Source: Rhodococcus sp. ARC_M6
GTDB lineage: Bacteria > Actinomycetota > Actinomycetes > Mycobacteriales > Mycobacteriaceae
Length of the DNA stretch: 64,000 bases
Direction: 5' to 3'
NCBI RefSeq assembly: GCF_022810305.1
Contig: NZ_JALGQH010000004.1
Span: 124,001 to 188,000 of the forward strand
The notes under the pieces were generated by a model that was not told the origin of the DNA, ran no database searches, and saw only the letters and a program-made list of their open reading frames with translations. Positions 46,886 through 58,733 of this stretch are shown piece by piece; within the stretch, counting starts at the first letter, position 1, and each line of letters opens with the position of its first letter. The position numbers were made by a program, and so were the translations under genes.

Positions 46886-46891
46886 TAGAGT
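46886..46891 (+). promoter_or_regulatory. Putative extended -10 for the subI leader transcript
   Basis: TGCTAGAGT contains TAGAGT seven bases before GTG 46899, so transcription would begin at or next to the leader-peptide start codon. Confidence 0.45.
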
Positions 46892-46898
46892 CCACGAC

Positions 46899-46988
46899 GT
46901 GTCCGAAGCAGCAGCACCTCAGATCCGCCATGAGTTGGCGTTGATCGCTGTCGGCATGCTCGACGTCGCTGACGTCGCCTGTTGTTGA
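46899..46988 (+). CDS. Cysteine leader peptide upstream of the sulfate importer operon
   Basis: GTG 46899 opens a 29-codon frame, VSEAAAPQIRHELAL..., ending DVADVACC with TGT TGT directly before TGA (46986-46988). It has no Shine-Dalgarno, but a -10-like hexamer lies seven bases upstream, so it is probably leaderless. The stop is 172 nt before subI, and the gap holds alternative hairpins. Cys codons directly before the stop upstream of sulfur genes are the mark of the polycysteine attenuator peptides reported in mycobacteria. The peptide probably works in cis by ribosome stalling. Confidence 0.75.
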   Translation: MSEAAAPQIRHELALIAVGMLDVADVACC

Positions 46989-50885: not shown

Positions 50886-50910
50886 CGGCTTTGCGCACCT
50901 TCGCTTTCGA

Positions 50911-50957
50911 GTGAACGTATCGCTCCCCTTGTCTGACAAGGGGAGCGATACGTTCAC
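50911..50957. terminator. Bidirectional terminator with 22-bp perfect stem
   Basis: Positions 50911-50932 and 50936-50957 are perfectly complementary (22 bp; outer end GTGAACGTATC, inner end CCCCTTGT) around a three-base CTG loop. It lies 25 bp after the cysA stop and between convergent genes. No T-run on either side. Confidence 0.85.
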
Positions 50958-51023
50958 CTCAGGAGGGCGGGGCGGGGGCACGGGTGGGAAGGGGGTGGGG
51001 TGAGGTGGGAAAGGGCAGGCAGG

Positions 51024-52818: not shown

Positions 52819-53574
52819 TCAGGCGGAGCGAACCAGGCGATCGGTCAGGCGTTCTACAGCCTGCTGGTACCGGTCGATCATCGTCTCGATCAAGAGTGGA
52901 TGCGCACCGATGGTGTCAGCGAACACGGCTCGATCGTCGGCCGCTGTGGCGGCCGCGCCGAGTCGATCGGTCAAAAGACCGGGCGCGAGGAACCAGGGGG
53001 CGACGACGATGCGGTGGGCACCACTCTCTCGCAGCGCGGACATTGCCTGCGCAACGGTGGGTTGGGTGGACGTCGCAAAACAGATCTGAACGCCGGACCA
53101 TGTGGTTCCCGACGCCAGAAGATCGGCAAGTTTTGTGGTGGCTGCGTTGGCGAGTGCTCCGGATGAACCGACGGCAGCGAGGGCAACCCCGACGGACGGA
53201 TCGTCGGGGTGTGCGCCGGCATCGAGGATGCGATGACGCACCGCAGATACGAGGCGTTTGTCACGGCCGAGAACATCGGCCTGGAATACGGCCAACTGCG
53301 GGTGACGCTGCCGAGCGGCGGCGAGGAGGCCGGGTAGATCGACTCGCGCATGGAAAGCGTTGCCCAGCAACATCGGAACTACGACGGCCTGGGTGTACCC
53401 GTCGGAAGCAACCCCGTCCAGCACCTGGTCGAGTGACGGAGCATTGAGGTCGAGAAACGCCAGCCTGATATCGAGATCGGGTCGGCGCTCGCGAAGCGCC
53501 GCGACGGCAGCCGCGATCACCCGAGCGGATCGGGGATCACGGCTGCCGTGTGCGACAGCGATCAACGGCATCAT
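52819..53574 (-). CDS. Sirohydrochlorin ferrochelatase (CbiX-like)
   Basis: 251 residues from ATG 53574, five bases after the cysN stop. PLIAVAHGSRDPRSA holds the catalytic His, followed by VVVPMLLGNAFHARVDL, and the second half repeats the fold (HRIVVAPWFLAPG). It would insert iron into sirohydrochlorin to make the siroheme required by the sulfite reductase encoded at the head of the same operon, matching Rv2393 in position. Confidence 0.9.
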   Translation of the reverse strand: MMPLIAVAHGSRDPRSARVIAAAVAALRERRPDLDIRLAFLDLNAPSLDQVLDGVASDGYTQAVVVPMLLGNAFHARVDLPGLLAAARQRHPQLAVFQADVLGRDKRLVSAVRHRILDAGAHPDDPSVGVALAAVGSSGALANAATTKLADLLASGTTWSGVQICFATSTQPTVAQAMSALRESGAHRIVVAPWFLAPGLLTDRLGAAATAADDRAVFADTIGAHPLLIETMIDRYQQAVERLTDRLVRSA

Positions 53575-53578
53575 CGAG

Positions 53579-54895
53579 TTAGACGCGCTCGCCCAGTTCG
53601 ACTGCAGCGATGACATCGCCCACGAGTCCGGCGGCGAGCGTATTTCCGCCGGCCGGATCGATGAGCAGAAAGCTGCCGGTGTGGCGGTTCACGGTGTAAT
53701 CGTCGGCCACGATCGGCTCGGCGACGCGCACCGAGATCTTGCCGATCTCGTTGAGCTCGAGGGTTTCCGGGCTGGGATCGGTGGTGAGATCCTGCTCGTT
53801 GAAACGCTCCACCAAGCTACCCACGATTGCCTGCGTCGTACGCGTGCCGTGCTTGAGCAGCAAGCGTGCGCCGGGACGCAGCGGCTTCTCGGCCAGCCAG
53901 CAGACGGTGGCGTCGAACTCGCCGATCGGTTCCGGTGCATCGGAGGGCGAAGCGATGGTGTCGCCGCGCGAGACGTCGACGTCGTCGGCCAGAATCAGCG
54001 TGACACTGCGTCCGGCGTGAGCGATATCCAGTTCACCGTCGGCGGTGTCGATCCGGACAACTGTGGTGCGGGTGCCTGAGGGCAGGATCACCACTTCGTC
54101 GCCGGGTACGACGCTGCCGGCAGCAATCTGACCGGCATAGCCGCGGTAGTCCAAGAACTCTGCGGTTCGGGGGCGGATCACGTACTGCACCGGGAAACGC
54201 AGGCCGACGCGATGCGGCTCGGCGTCGACAGGAATCGACTCGAGGTGCTCGATCAGCGTGGGACCGGTGTAGTACGGGGTCTTGTCCGAGCGGATGGCAA
54301 CGTTGTCGCCGTGCAGAGCCGACACCGGGATCTCGACGACGTCTTCGCTCGCCCAGCCCAAGGAGCTGGTGAGCTCGTTGAACTCGGCGGAGATCGACGT
54401 GAAGACCTCTTCCGGGTTCTCGACGAGGTCGATCTTGTTGACGGCGAGAACCAGCTTCGGTACGCCGAGCAACGCGAGAACCGCTGCATGCCTGCGAGTC
54501 TGGGAGATGACACCCTTGCGGGCATCGACCAGCAGAATTACCAACTGTGCCGTGGACGCACCCGAAACGGTGTTGCGGGTGTACTGCACGTGTCCCGGTG
54601 TATCGGCCAGCACGAACGTGCGATTCGGGGTCGCGAAGTAGCGGTACGCCACGTCGATGGTGATGCCCTGCTCACGCTCGGCGCGCAGACCGTCTACCAG
54701 CAACGAGAGGTCCGGCGTGTCCAGGCCGCGGTCAACCGAGGCGCGTGTGACGGCGTCGATCTGGTCGGCGAGAACGGATTTTGTGTCGTACAACAGACGG
54801 CCCACGAGAGTGGACTTTCCGTCGTCGACGCTGCCGGCCGTGGCTAGTCGCAGAAGCTGAGCAGAATGGTTGCTCCGCGCTTGTAGGTCGCTCAT
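53579..54895 (-). CDS. cysN: Sulfate adenylyltransferase large subunit
   Basis: GTPase subunit of ATP sulfurylase, 438 residues. G1 GSVDDGKSTLVGRLLYD, G3 DTPGHVQYTRN and G4 NKIDLVE are present, followed by EF-Tu-like domains 2 and 3. Unlike CysNC fusions it has no C-terminal APS kinase, consistent with direct reduction of APS by CysH. Its ATG overlaps the cysD stop by one base. Confidence 0.96.
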   Translation of the reverse strand: MSDLQARSNHSAQLLRLATAGSVDDGKSTLVGRLLYDTKSVLADQIDAVTRASVDRGLDTPDLSLLVDGLRAEREQGITIDVAYRYFATPNRTFVLADTPGHVQYTRNTVSGASTAQLVILLVDARKGVISQTRRHAAVLALLGVPKLVLAVNKIDLVENPEEVFTSISAEFNELTSSLGWASEDVVEIPVSALHGDNVAIRSDKTPYYTGPTLIEHLESIPVDAEPHRVGLRFPVQYVIRPRTAEFLDYRGYAGQIAAGSVVPGDEVVILPSGTRTTVVRIDTADGELDIAHAGRSVTLILADDVDVSRGDTIASPSDAPEPIGEFDATVCWLAEKPLRPGARLLLKHGTRTTQAIVGSLVERFNEQDLTTDPSPETLELNEIGKISVRVAEPIVADDYTVNRHTGSFLLIDPAGGNTLAAGLVGDVIAAVELGERV

Positions 54896-55845
54896 CAGAA
54901 GTAGCCCTCTCGCTTGCGGTCTTCCATGGCCGCTTCGGAAACTCGGTCGTCGCCACGGGTCGCGCCGCGCTCGGTCAAACGTGATGCGGCAACCTCGGCG
55001 AGAATCGCCTCGTTGTCAGATGCTTCCGAAAGGACTGCACCGGTGGTCGAGCCGTCACCGACAGTGCGGTAACGCACCGAAAGGGTCTGCAGCTCTTCGC
55101 CTTCAGCTGGGCCGCCCCACACGCCGGGGGTCATCCACATGCCGTCGCGCTGGTACACCGGACGCTGGTGGGCGTAGTAGATGCTGGCCAGTTCGATGTT
55201 GTCGCGGGCAATGTAACGCCAGATGTCCAACTCGGTGAAGTTGCTGAGTGGGAACACGCGAACCTGCTCGCCGGGGGAGTGGCGACCGTTGTACAGGTTC
55301 CACAGTTCCGGGCGCTGCTTCTTCGGATCCCACTGGCCGAAGGAGTTGCGCAAGGAGAAGATCCGCTCCTTCGCGCGAGCACGCTCCTCGTCGCGCCGGG
55401 CGCCACCGAAGATCGCATCGAAGCGGTTCTCGGCGATGGAATCCAGCAACGGCACGGTCTGCAGCGGGTTGCGGATACCGTCGGGACGCTCGGTGAGACG
55501 ACCGTCCGCGAGGTACTCCTCGACGCTGGCAACCTGCAGACGCAGGTTGTACTTGGCCACGACGTGATCGCGGAAGTCGAGAACTTCCTGCAGGTTGTGG
55601 CCGGTATCGACGTGAAGCAGCGTGAACGGCACCGGTGCCGGCCAGAATGCCTTGATCGCCAGGTGCAGCAGCACCGTGGAGTCCTTGCCGCCAGAGAACA
55701 GAATGACCGGGCGTTCGAACTCGCCTGCCACCTCACGGAAGATGTGGATGGCTTCGGACTCGAGGGCGTCAAGGGTGTCGAACTGTGTCCCGTCGAGCTG
55801 AGGCCGTGAAGGTGTCAATGCAGTAGGTGTCAATTCAATGGTCAT
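54895..55845 (-). CDS. cysD: Sulfate adenylyltransferase small subunit
   Basis: Adenylates sulfate to APS together with CysN. 316 residues from ATG 55845. PP-loop motif ILFSGGKDSTVLLHLA near residue 50, HVDTGHNLQEV, FGGARRDEERARAKER and the C-terminal region EDRKREGYF are typical of CysD. ATG overlaps the cysH stop by four bases. Confidence 0.96.
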   Translation of the reverse strand: MTIELTPTALTPSRPQLDGTQFDTLDALESEAIHIFREVAGEFERPVILFSGGKDSTVLLHLAIKAFWPAPVPFTLLHVDTGHNLQEVLDFRDHVVAKYNLRLQVASVEEYLADGRLTERPDGIRNPLQTVPLLDSIAENRFDAIFGGARRDEERARAKERIFSLRNSFGQWDPKKQRPELWNLYNGRHSPGEQVRVFPLSNFTELDIWRYIARDNIELASIYYAHQRPVYQRDGMWMTPGVWGGPAEGEELQTLSVRYRTVGDGSTTGAVLSEASDNEAILAEVAASRLTERGATRGDDRVSEAAMEDRKREGYF

Positions 55846-56555
55846 GATGCGTGCAACCCGCATTCTGTCTTGGAGGCGCCGGCCCAACGACCGCTACGCG
55901 GATCGCTGCCGGGGGCTGGCTTATTGGTGCAAGGTGCGCAGCCGATGGACGGATAGCCCTCGTCGACAAGAGGATTGACGAGGATGGAATGGGTATCGAT
56001 GTAGCTCTGCATTTCTTCGTCTGACCAGGGAGCGATCGGATTGATCTTCACGAGTCCGAAGCCCTCGTCGAAGGAGATCAGAGGTGCGTTGGCGCGGGTG
56101 GGGGCTTCGACGCGGCGGATGCCGGTCACCCAGGCCCCGTAACCGGACAGAGTCTGCTTGAGCGGTGCGACCTTGCGAAGTGCGCAGCAGCGGTTGGGAT
56201 CTCGGGCAAACAGATCCTTGCCTTCTGCGACGTCCTGCTCGGCAACACTGGCCAGTGCGCGGGCATTGATGACGTTGACGCCGTACACCTGCTCGACCGC
56301 GTCACGCGTTCCGATGGTCTCGGGGAAGTGGTAGCCGGTGTCGAGGAACAAGACGTCGACGCCCGGATGCACCTGTGCGGCAAGGTGAACGAGCACCCCG
56401 TCCTGCATGTTCGACGCAACAATGTAGTTGCTGCCGAACGTATCTTCGGTCCACTGCAACAGTTCTTGCGCGGTGGCGCCTTCGAGTTCTGCGGCACCCT
56501 TCTCGGCGATCGCGCGCAGTTCGTCGGCGGTGGCCCTCGTGATGTCTACAGTCAT
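55842..56555 (-). CDS. cysH: Adenylylsulfate (APS) reductase
   Basis: Reduces APS to sulfite using thioredoxin. 237 residues from ATG 56555. The 4Fe-4S cysteines are in DPNRCCALRKV and GCAPCTN, which mark the APS rather than the PAPS enzyme, and the catalytic Cys is in KTECGLH at the C-terminus. LDTGYHFPET is the PP-loop-family loop. Overlaps sir and cysD by four bases each. Confidence 0.96.
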   Translation of the reverse strand: MTVDITRATADELRAIAEKGAAELEGATAQELLQWTEDTFGSNYIVASNMQDGVLVHLAAQVHPGVDVLFLDTGYHFPETIGTRDAVEQVYGVNVINARALASVAEQDVAEGKDLFARDPNRCCALRKVAPLKQTLSGYGAWVTGIRRVEAPTRANAPLISFDEGFGLVKINPIAPWSDEEMQSYIDTHSILVNPLVDEGYPSIGCAPCTNKPAPGSDPRSGRWAGASKTECGLHAS

Positions 56556-58282
56556 CGCAAATCTCCTTCGTCTGCTCGCACTGCCCATTCGGCGAAACGT
56601 TCGCCCTCGTTGCGGTTCTTCACGAACTGCCGGACGACTCGATCGATGTAGTCACCCATTTCGACGCTCGTGACCTTGTGCTGGCGTAGCTTTCGCCCGA
56701 AGGCGGTGTCGAAGCCGAGGCTGCCGCCCAGGTGAACCTGGAAGCCTTCGACCTGGTTGCCTTCACCGTCGTCGACCAACTGGCCCTTGAAGCCGATGTC
56801 CGCGACCTGCGAGCGGGCACAGGAGTTGGGGCAACCGTTGATGTTGATCGTGATAGGCACGTCGAGCTGGGCGTTGATGTCCGCCAAACGCTCTTCGAGT
56901 TCGGGTACGAGAACCTGTGAACGCTTGCGTGTTTCGGCAAACGACAGCTTGCAGAACTCGATGCCGGAGCAGGCCATCAGGTTCTTGCGCCAGTGCGACG
57001 GCCGAGCCGGCAGGCCCAGGGCGTCGAGGTCGGCGATCAGGGGTTCGAGAGTTTCTTCGGCCACGTCGAGAATGATCAGCTTCTGGAAGGGCGTGAAGCG
57101 GATCCGGTCACTTCCGGCCTTCTCGGCTGCGTCGGCAACCTGAGCCAGGATGGTTCCCGAGACGCGGCCGGCGATCGGCGCGAAACCGACTGCGTTGAGA
57201 CCGTTCTGGGTCTTCTGGATACCGACGTGGTCGATGGGACGCGTCGGCTTCTCGGGTGCCGGGCCGTCGATGAGGGGACGCTTCAGGTACTCGGTCTCGA
57301 GGACTTCGCGGAACTTCTCGATGCCCCAGTCCTTGATGAGGAACTTGAGCCTGGCCTTGGCGCGCAGACGGCGGTATCCGTAGTCGCGGAAGATCGAGAC
57401 AACGCCTTCCCAGACGTCGGGGACCTCGTCGAGCGGAATCCAGGCGCCGACGCGCTGAGCGAGCATCGGGTTGGTGGACAGGCCGCCGCCGACCCAGAGA
57501 TCAAGTCCGGGACCGTGTTCCGGGTGGTTCACGCCGATGAACGCGACGTCGTTGATCTCGTGGACTACGTCCTGCTGGCCGGAGATTGCGGTCTTGAACT
57601 TGCGGGGCAGGTTGGAGTAGCGGGGATCGCCGATGTAGCGGCGGACGATCTCGTCGATCGCGGGGGTGGGATCGAGTACCTCGTCGAGGGATTCGCCGGC
57701 CAGGGGAGAACCGAGAACGACGCGGGGGCAGTCGCCGCACGCTTCCGTGGTCTTGAGGCCGACAGCTTCGAGACGGTTCCAGATCTCCGGGACGTTCTCG
57801 ACCTCGATCCAATGGAACTGGACGTTCTCGCGGTCGGACAGGTCGGCGGTATTGCGGCCGAACTCCTGTGAGATGCCGGCGATGGTGCGCAGCTGCTCGA
57901 CGTTGAGAGCGCCCGCGTCGCAACGCACTCGCATCATGAAGTACTTGGCCTCGAGGAGGTCGAGGTTCTCGTCACCGGTGAAGGTGGCGTCGTATCCCTC
58001 TTCGCGCTGTGTGTAGAGGCCCCACCAACGGAAGCGTCCACGCAGGTCGCTCTTGTCGATGCTGTCGAACCCCTGCTTGGAGTAGATGTTCTCGATGCGC
58101 GCCCGCACGTTCAGCGGGTTGTCGTCCTTCTTCGCCTGCTCGTTGGCGTTGAGGGGCTCGCGGTATCCGAGGGCCCACTGACCTTCGGCGCGAGACTTCG
58201 TCGGGCGAGGAGAACGGGCAGGCCGTGCTGGTGCGGCAGCTGCGTCATCAGCAGCTGTAGCGGCGTCGGTCGTCGACGTCAT
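56552..58282 (-). CDS. sir: Ferredoxin-dependent sulfite reductase (siroheme, 4Fe-4S)
   Basis: Six-electron reduction of sulfite to sulfide. 576 residues from ATG 58282 behind CAGGAGAT. Two half-repeats are present, with siroheme/cluster cysteines in CSGIEFCKLSF and NINGCPNSCARSQ. The homologue in M. tuberculosis is annotated nirA (also sirA) but acts on sulfite; operon context here supports sulfite reduction. The N-terminal ~45 residues are Ala/Pro-rich. First gene of sir-cysH-cysD-cysN-chelatase, preceded by a 222-nt leader with a polycysteine peptide. Confidence 0.95.
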   Translation of the reverse strand: MTSTTDAATAADDAAAAPARPARSPRPTKSRAEGQWALGYREPLNANEQAKKDDNPLNVRARIENIYSKQGFDSIDKSDLRGRFRWWGLYTQREEGYDATFTGDENLDLLEAKYFMMRVRCDAGALNVEQLRTIAGISQEFGRNTADLSDRENVQFHWIEVENVPEIWNRLEAVGLKTTEACGDCPRVVLGSPLAGESLDEVLDPTPAIDEIVRRYIGDPRYSNLPRKFKTAISGQQDVVHEINDVAFIGVNHPEHGPGLDLWVGGGLSTNPMLAQRVGAWIPLDEVPDVWEGVVSIFRDYGYRRLRAKARLKFLIKDWGIEKFREVLETEYLKRPLIDGPAPEKPTRPIDHVGIQKTQNGLNAVGFAPIAGRVSGTILAQVADAAEKAGSDRIRFTPFQKLIILDVAEETLEPLIADLDALGLPARPSHWRKNLMACSGIEFCKLSFAETRKRSQVLVPELEERLADINAQLDVPITININGCPNSCARSQVADIGFKGQLVDDGEGNQVEGFQVHLGGSLGFDTAFGRKLRQHKVTSVEMGDYIDRVVRQFVKNRNEGERFAEWAVRADEGDLR

Positions 58283-58310
58283 CGATGATCTCCTGGATCT
58301 GGGCGGTGTT

Positions 58311-58365: not shown

Positions 58366-58433
58366 CGTATCGAGCGAGGGGGCTGTCCTCGTTCTCGGAA
58401 GGCTCTGGGCCGGCAGATGTGCTCACGAAGAAA

Positions 58434-58452
58434 GTCAGCTATCAATGCTGAC
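58434..58452 (-). promoter_or_regulatory. Second small hairpin in the sir leader
   Basis: GTCAGC and GCTGAC form a six-bp stem with a seven-base loop. The loop and arm contain ATTGAT, which can alternatively pair with ATCAAT in the hairpin downstream of the leader peptide, so the two structures may be mutually exclusive. Confidence 0.35.
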
Positions 58453-58484
58453 GACTGGTGAAGCAGATGAAGATGAGCGGGAAG

Positions 58485-58512
58485 GCTGATTGATCAGGTG
58501 AAGATCAACAGC
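58485..58512 (-). promoter_or_regulatory. Hairpin that includes the Cys codons and stop of the leader peptide
   Basis: Reverse-strand GCTGTTGATC (58512-58503) pairs with GATCAATCAGC (58495-58485), ten pairs with one bulged base and a seven-base loop. The first arm covers part of the TGC and the final TGT-TGA codons. A ribosome stalled there would prevent this pairing. Confidence 0.6.
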
Positions 58513-58597
58513 AACAGGAGGGCAGACACGTAGAGCTGCACACACGCTTGAAGTCGACGTGGCGACGCGCCACAAGTCGTACTCCGAGTCCGGTCAT
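58505..58597 (-). CDS. Polycysteine leader peptide upstream of the sulfite reductase operon
   Basis: From ATG 58597 (ATG 58606 also in frame) 30 codons read MTGLGVRLVARRHVDF... and end RVCSSTCLPSCCC, with TGT TGC TGT directly before TGA at 58507-58505. Five cysteines in the last eleven residues is extraordinary in this GC-rich genome. CACAAT seven bases before 58597 may be a -10, giving a leaderless message. It matches in type the polycysteine leaders described upstream of mycobacterial cysteine operons, and lies 222 nt before sir. Confidence 0.8.
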   Translation of the reverse strand: MTGLGVRLVARRHVDFKRVCSSTCLPSCCC

Positions 58598-58733
58598 GAC
58601 GACCATTGTGCCACGTCAAATCGATAATTCCGACCCGGGTACCTATTTCCACCAAAATTGGGGGAAATGCACTGCTCAGGCTGTCGGCGCAAGTGGAGTA
58701 GGACGACGCTGCGAATGCTGGGAGACTGGTGGA

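Follow-up and report, generated by a model that had tools for sequence, protein, structure and literature searches.

A conserved Cys-rich leader peptide of the Ms4527A family and a CAGCCC hairpin upstream of the sulfite reductase operon in Rhodococcus sp. ARC_M6

Cysteine leader peptides were predicted before mycobacterial cys operons in 2005 (Seliverstov et al., PMC1262725), in a survey that found no terminators at these leaders and no conserved hairpin fit for a terminator role, and in which Rho-dependent attenuation was put forward. Ribosome profiling in 2015 detected conserved Cys-rich leaderless sORFs (PMC4633059), and later papers credit Canestrari et al. (2020) with describing the M. 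smegmatis leaders as cysteine-responsive attenuators (via PMC13236596, PMC9094748 and PMC9031893), with translation attenuation given as their mechanism (via PMC13236596 and PMC9031893).

Here we describe a Cys-rich frame upstream of the sulfite reductase gene sir in a 64,000-nucleotide stretch of the genome of Rhodococcus sp. ARC_M6, referred to as the window. The locus resembles the polycysteine leaderless sORF attenuators of M. smegmatis (Ms5788A and others; Canestrari 2020), as these are presented in the papers that cite them, in placing an apparently leaderless Cys-rich sORF before a cysteine operon and in the sequestration of a ribosome-binding site relieved by a stalled ribosome, which is a prediction here. 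It differs in that the Rhodococcus case is drawn from sequence and folding, in that the predicted pairing is not kept in relatives, and, relative to the same accounts, in carrying an extra conserved CAGCCC hairpin. With the leaders surveyed in 2005 (PMC1262725) it shares its class, Cys codons near the stop and the lack of a consistent terminator; the difference is a conserved non-terminator hairpin across the Mycobacteriaceae.

The leader peptide and the sir operon

The features of the leader and operon are as follows.

58605..58613, minus strand: -10 promoter element TGGCACAAT, separated from the leader ATG by 7 nt
58505..58597, minus strand: leader peptide ORF, MTGLGVRLVARRHVDFKRVCSSTCLPSCCC and its stop, assigned by NF042936 match and conservation
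58290..58295, minus strand: sir Shine-Dalgarno sequence CAGGAG, found shortly before the sir start in nearly all relatives
56552..58282, minus strand: sir, a member of the one-subunit ferredoxin-dependent nitrite/sulfite reductase family and the first structural gene, with NCBIfam nitrite/sulfite reductase matches under their equivalog cut-offs
52819..56588, minus strand: cysH, cysD, cysN and sirohydrochlorin chelatase, the rest of the operon, from ORFs and NCBIfam

The leader frame begins with an ATG at 58597 and runs for 30 sense codons to RVCSSTCLPSCCC and a TGA stop (58507-58505, minus strand), which leaves 222 nt to the start codon of sir, the ATG at 58282; re-reading the coordinates bore out the Cys-rich frame and the spacing given in an earlier, sequence-only reading of this DNA. 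Its 3' end, TGT TGC TGT TGA, sets consecutive Cys codons directly at the stop. When stops preceded by 12 open codons were counted in all six frames of the window, the leader was the sole case among 1794 with at least five Cys in those 12 codons.

The gene order sir-cysH-cysD-cysN-chelatase of that reading was likewise recovered from the ORFs and NCBIfam, with CysH, CysD and CysN over their cut-offs and the chelatase under its own. The sir start was set by the beginning MTST/MSST, which is conserved in relatives. Identity of sir reaches 99% with Rhodococcus sp. IEGM 1379 and 96% with R. qingshengii, which puts the organism close to R. qingshengii. A five-gene operon of the same make-up has been described in R. 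qingshengii IGTS8, where Sir and CysDN showed no significant change between dibenzothiophene and sulfate cultures, a comparison that lies apart from cysteine limitation itself (PMC8557817).

Against NCBIfam NF042936 ('Ms4527A family Cys-rich leader peptide') the leader scores 47.7 bits (E 8.2e-13), or 46.5 bits when the whole genome is scanned, in both cases over the curated cut-off of 45, which upholds the proposed homology to mycobacterial polycysteine leaders. Because this cut-off is passed and the mycobacterial reports date from 2005, 2015 and 2020, the leader counts, by its sequence, as a further conserved representative of a family that had been named before, and neither the class nor the family is new. 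Besides the score, it shares with the Ms4527A family a Cys-rich C-terminus, an apparently leaderless start and a place before sir; it differs in its gap to sir, 222 nt where most other relatives examined have about 105-165 nt, and in a CCC end peculiar to its nearest relatives. The leader also has the RRHVD core of NF042934 (putative leader peptide, cis_reg_atten), but at 20.4 bits falls under the 27-bit cut-off of that model, and the RRHVD-core sir leaders outside the Mycobacteriaceae differ in having one Cys. A search of Rfam returned no match at the leader/sir locus up to E 1, and a known riboswitch or RNA family was discarded on this result.

Conservation in close relatives, the lack of which had been named beforehand as a refuting point, is extensive: the leader was found in 28/28 Rhodococcus genomes (E 1 or better), has a match in 123/151 genomes of the family (E 0.01), and lies upstream of sir in all 78 named sir loci whose upstream sequence could be read. 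Between 61 distinct leader sequences the difference rates at codon positions 1, 2 and 3 are 0.12, 0.062 and 0.347, and the residues L, RRH, D and R are invariant among them; the synonymous substitutions show that selection acts on the leader as a peptide. The occurrence at 78/78 sir loci, the codon-position bias and the unique Cys clustering together rule out a chance ORF. A TGGCA-type -10 element is present 6-7 nt ahead of the start codon in 77 of the 78 named loci, and is also visible in the loci of the genus; this conserved distance implies that the transcript is leaderless and would begin at the leader start codon.

Aligning the relatives for conserved Cys codons, a check proposed with the sequence-only reading, gave a divided answer. 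The number of Cys after RRHVD ranges from 1 to 7 and is mostly at least two; the steadiest is the Cys after RV, which together with one or more soon after it makes up the conserved Cys codons, and the CCC run is restricted to the closest relatives of the window. Elsewhere in the order, outside the Mycobacteriaceae, the leader of 17 sir loci bears RRHVD, RLHVD or RLHID and has just one Cys, close to its end, and the motif was not found before sir in six loci of one genus of the same order. Given the single Cys of these sir leaders, the polycysteine end looks like an addition that arose within the Mycobacteriaceae. The same distribution bears on a mechanism of nascent-peptide arrest, in which the LVARRHVD-KRV segment in the ribosome tunnel would bring about a pause at the following Cys codon, one Cys being sufficient and the extra ones sharpening the response. 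The near invariance of the motif in protein, with synonymous change free, and its retention beside one Cys in the other families speak for such an arrest, which could act jointly with sequestration of the sir ribosome-binding site; the argument is nevertheless drawn from sequence, and the conservation of the motif could serve another end, such as ribosome spacing. We therefore treat arrest as a tentative possibility, with the balance tilted against it.

Hairpins, terminator-like sites and C-rich sequence after the leader

Two hairpins had been proposed over the end of the leader and the sequence that follows it.

58485..58512, minus strand: hairpin 1, the Cys codons and stop paired with GAUCAAUCAGC, folding at -11 kcal/mol (z -4.05)
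58434..58452, minus strand: hairpin 2, a terminator-like match with GUCAGC-loop-GCUGAC followed by UUUCUU

Folding reproduces both at these positions, as well as the alternative pairing of the 3' arm of hairpin 1, GAUCAAUCAGC, with part of hairpin 2. The switch that had been built on them, in which a ribosome stalled on the Cys codons opens hairpin 1, fares differently. In the 10-genome clade of the window, seven pairs of hairpin 1 are unvarying and three of ten vary solely by breaking, with no compensatory changes; the covarying stem bases that were to be looked for are absent from these 10 genomes. Outside this clade the sequence after the leader stop differs, so that hairpin 1 is confined to it. 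The hairpin mechanism is unsupported because compensatory changes are lacking and the structure is confined to the clade of the window, and the two-hairpin switch was discarded as a conserved mechanism.

Transcription attenuation in its simpler form, with the leader ribosome deciding whether hairpin 2 and its UUUCUU form and end transcription before sir, draws on several local observations. The terminator-like site at 58452-58434 is one match where 0.3 would be expected, the region 58420-58520 is more stable than its shuffles (z -3.8), and a hairpin with an altered stem persists at the same place in the clade of the window, as judged by eye from the alignment. Against this, terminator-like sites between leader and sir occur in just 7/78 loci, the U-run here is weak, hairpin 1 is without compensatory change, and terminators were not found at mycobacterial cys leaders in the 2005 survey (PMC1262725). 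An intrinsic terminator was discarded as a general mechanism on the figure of 7/78 loci, and this figure and the uncompensated hairpin 1 are at odds with the conserved terminator and antiterminator that mark a classical trp-type attenuator. We consider attenuation of this kind very unlikely.

The sequence beyond the leader stop is C-rich, and therefore Rho-dependent attenuation stays a rival: the ribosome would leave at the leader stop, Rho would load on the C-rich stretch, and transcription would end before sir. The first 60 nt past the stop contain 41.5% C and 24.4% G, as against 34% and 32% in the sir coding sequence, and the 2005 survey had put Rho forward for the cys leaders of mycobacteria (PMC1262725). 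However, this C excess is moderate and has the sir coding sequence as its sole yardstick, little of the stretch would be shielded by a ribosome that has stalled on the Cys codons, and the M. smegmatis work, as cited by later papers, reports translational control. Termination by Rho is in our judgement quite improbable.

What stands of the sequence-only reading is a cysteine leader placed to control sir-cysH-cysD-cysN-chelatase (NF042936; 78/78 loci); its two-hairpin mechanism does not. It was probably right in function and wrong in its structural switch.

The sir ribosome-binding site and the proposed mechanism

A different structural partner for the leader emerges when the sir Shine-Dalgarno sequence is included in the folding.

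58515..58520, minus strand: CUCCUG within the Cys tract, the partner of the sir Shine-Dalgarno sequence predicted by folding

Folding gives CAGGAG a probability of 0.67-0.89 of pairing with CUCCUG, in the window as well as in the two relatives nearest to it, values to be read with the caution that long-range pairing predicted from energy alone is unreliable; the pairing is absent in the other Rhodococcus species folded. In the free RNA of the window the predicted accessibility of the Shine-Dalgarno sequence is 0.26. Placing a model ribosome on the Cys codons raises it to 0.5-0.82, with about 0.8 for the last Cys codons; on earlier leader codons the values are mostly 0.01-0.25, several of them below 0.1 and one at 0.55. 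In the other Rhodococcus tested, accessibility is little changed as the model ribosome moves along the leader. The exact pairing may be species-specific or an artefact of long-range folding, as the response is not seen in these other species. For the window, the folding points to sequestration of the sir ribosome-binding site in preference to the earlier hairpin switch, and the predicted pairing agrees with the translation attenuation that PMC13236596 and PMC9031893 relate for M. smegmatis.

Our data suggest the following model for this locus. Transcription would begin at the leader AUG, and therefore every ribosome loading at the 5' end would read the leader first. With ample Cys-tRNA, the ribosome would complete the leader and depart, leaving the sir ribosome-binding site hidden in RNA structure, where its masking partner in the window is most likely the CUCCUG inside the Cys tract. 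With charged Cys-tRNA scarce, the ribosome would pause on the Cys codons and cover CUCCUG; CAGGAG would then be freed, and sir and the genes behind it translated. We judge it likely that the leader is a leaderless, cysteine-responsive peptide of the Ms4527A family which sets the expression of sir-cysH-cysD-cysN-chelatase in this way, by masking of the ribosome-binding site relieved by stalling. The analysis itself shows the frame and its family match, the conservation of the peptide, a promoter arranged as for a leaderless mRNA, and the predicted pairing with its response to the model ribosome; from sequence and precedent we infer leader translation, stalling and the cysteine response in Rhodococcus. 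Counting against the model, the pairing is local, the CCC run is not conserved, and Sir and CysDN were not significantly changed in the IGTS8 comparison (PMC8557817). The roles of the RRHVD motif and of the CAGCCC hairpin described below fall outside it.

The CAGCCC hairpin and further Cys leaders

The strongly conserved structure at the locus, on comparison of sequences, is a hairpin that the sequence-only reading had missed.

58375..58391, minus strand: conserved hairpin cgagg-ACAGCCC-cctcg with the loop CAGCCC and a covarying stem, between leader and sir

Whole leader regions were consensus-folded by clade, which gave covariation no higher than in shuffled columns; the CAGCCC hairpin was spotted by reading the alignments and tested afterwards. 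In a set of 108 loci no other hexamer comes near CAGCCC in its frequency in hairpin loops, the next one reaching 19, and a stem of at least 5 bp is formed in 52 of the 92 loci that hold it. Elsewhere in the same loci only 8.7% of CAGCC sites form such a hairpin. When arms were swapped between genomes, 10% (at most 18%) retained five pairs, compared with 53% in their own combination. Among 17 distinct hairpins all seven pairs change on both sides, with a covariation score of 1.02 against 0.24 for shuffled sequences; these 17 were chosen because they pair, so that arm swapping gives the fairer test. A clean 5-bp stem is missing from roughly half of the loci, and longer or variant loops occur in some. 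The hairpin has no Rfam match at the locus, and sampling of other families in the order did not recover it. G-U as opposed to A-C mismatches in the stems favour the sense strand by 10 to 5, a weak bias.

A pseudoknot between the loop and the leader or early sir was discarded, as no recurrent complement to CAGCCC was found in either and complements are rare there. A wider regulon of such hairpins was likewise discarded: in a covariance-model search of the organism's own genome the sir site is the only one below E 2, and the weak matches in 61 genomes are about the number expected by chance.

One possibility is a partner in trans, and the hairpin might itself be the switch, with a protein or small RNA on the loop controlling the translation or stability of sir mRNA and the leader modulating access. 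The conserved loop and covarying stem are in keeping with this, and the rarity of loop complements in the leader and early sir makes the loop seem free for such a partner. No partner is known, however, and the leader extends further than the hairpin, which part of the family lacks or has in altered form and which did not turn up in the other families sampled; we hold this reading to be unlikely. A broader proposal joins it to the peptide: that the sir mRNA of the Mycobacteriaceae has a second control in this undescribed hairpin, bound in trans, and that the leader is at root a one-Cys nascent-peptide arrest turned polycysteine. Taken jointly, these two claims are rather doubtful. The preferred reading, in which the leader acts through the sir ribosome-binding site, draws further support from a second leader of the same set in the window.

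46899..46988, plus strand: second Cys leader, VSEAAAPQIRHELALIAVGMLDVADVACC and its stop, before a sulfate-binding protein gene (NCBIfam NF042937, Ms4533A family; 53.3 bits, cut-off 31)

A TAGAGT at 46886-46891 (plus strand) lies 7 nt ahead of the GTG of this leader, in a leaderless arrangement. The genome offers six further candidates; the genes that follow them are a cysA2-like rhodanese gene, those of ABC transporters and a symporter, and osmC-like/metY, the names being read from the sequences rather than from a family search; three have clear Cys-rich ends and three are weaker. Several leaders in one genome would fit a set of operons tuned separately by cysteine-sensing ribosomes.

Away from the leader locus, a very stable hairpin at 50902-50969 (stem of more than 20 bp, z -8.3) lies between the convergent cysA and universal-stress-protein-like genes and is probably a bidirectional terminator. 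Weak matches to microRNA models at 50900-50971 were rejected, as they are accounted for by this long, near-perfect hairpin.

Our analysis extends the mycobacterial regulatory scheme to Rhodococcus, whose members serve in fuel desulfurisation and whose control of sulfur assimilation is poorly understood. It also offers two testable leads beyond the known scheme: an RRHVD motif that is better conserved than the Cys run and, ahead of sir, a covarying hairpin whose loop is conserved.
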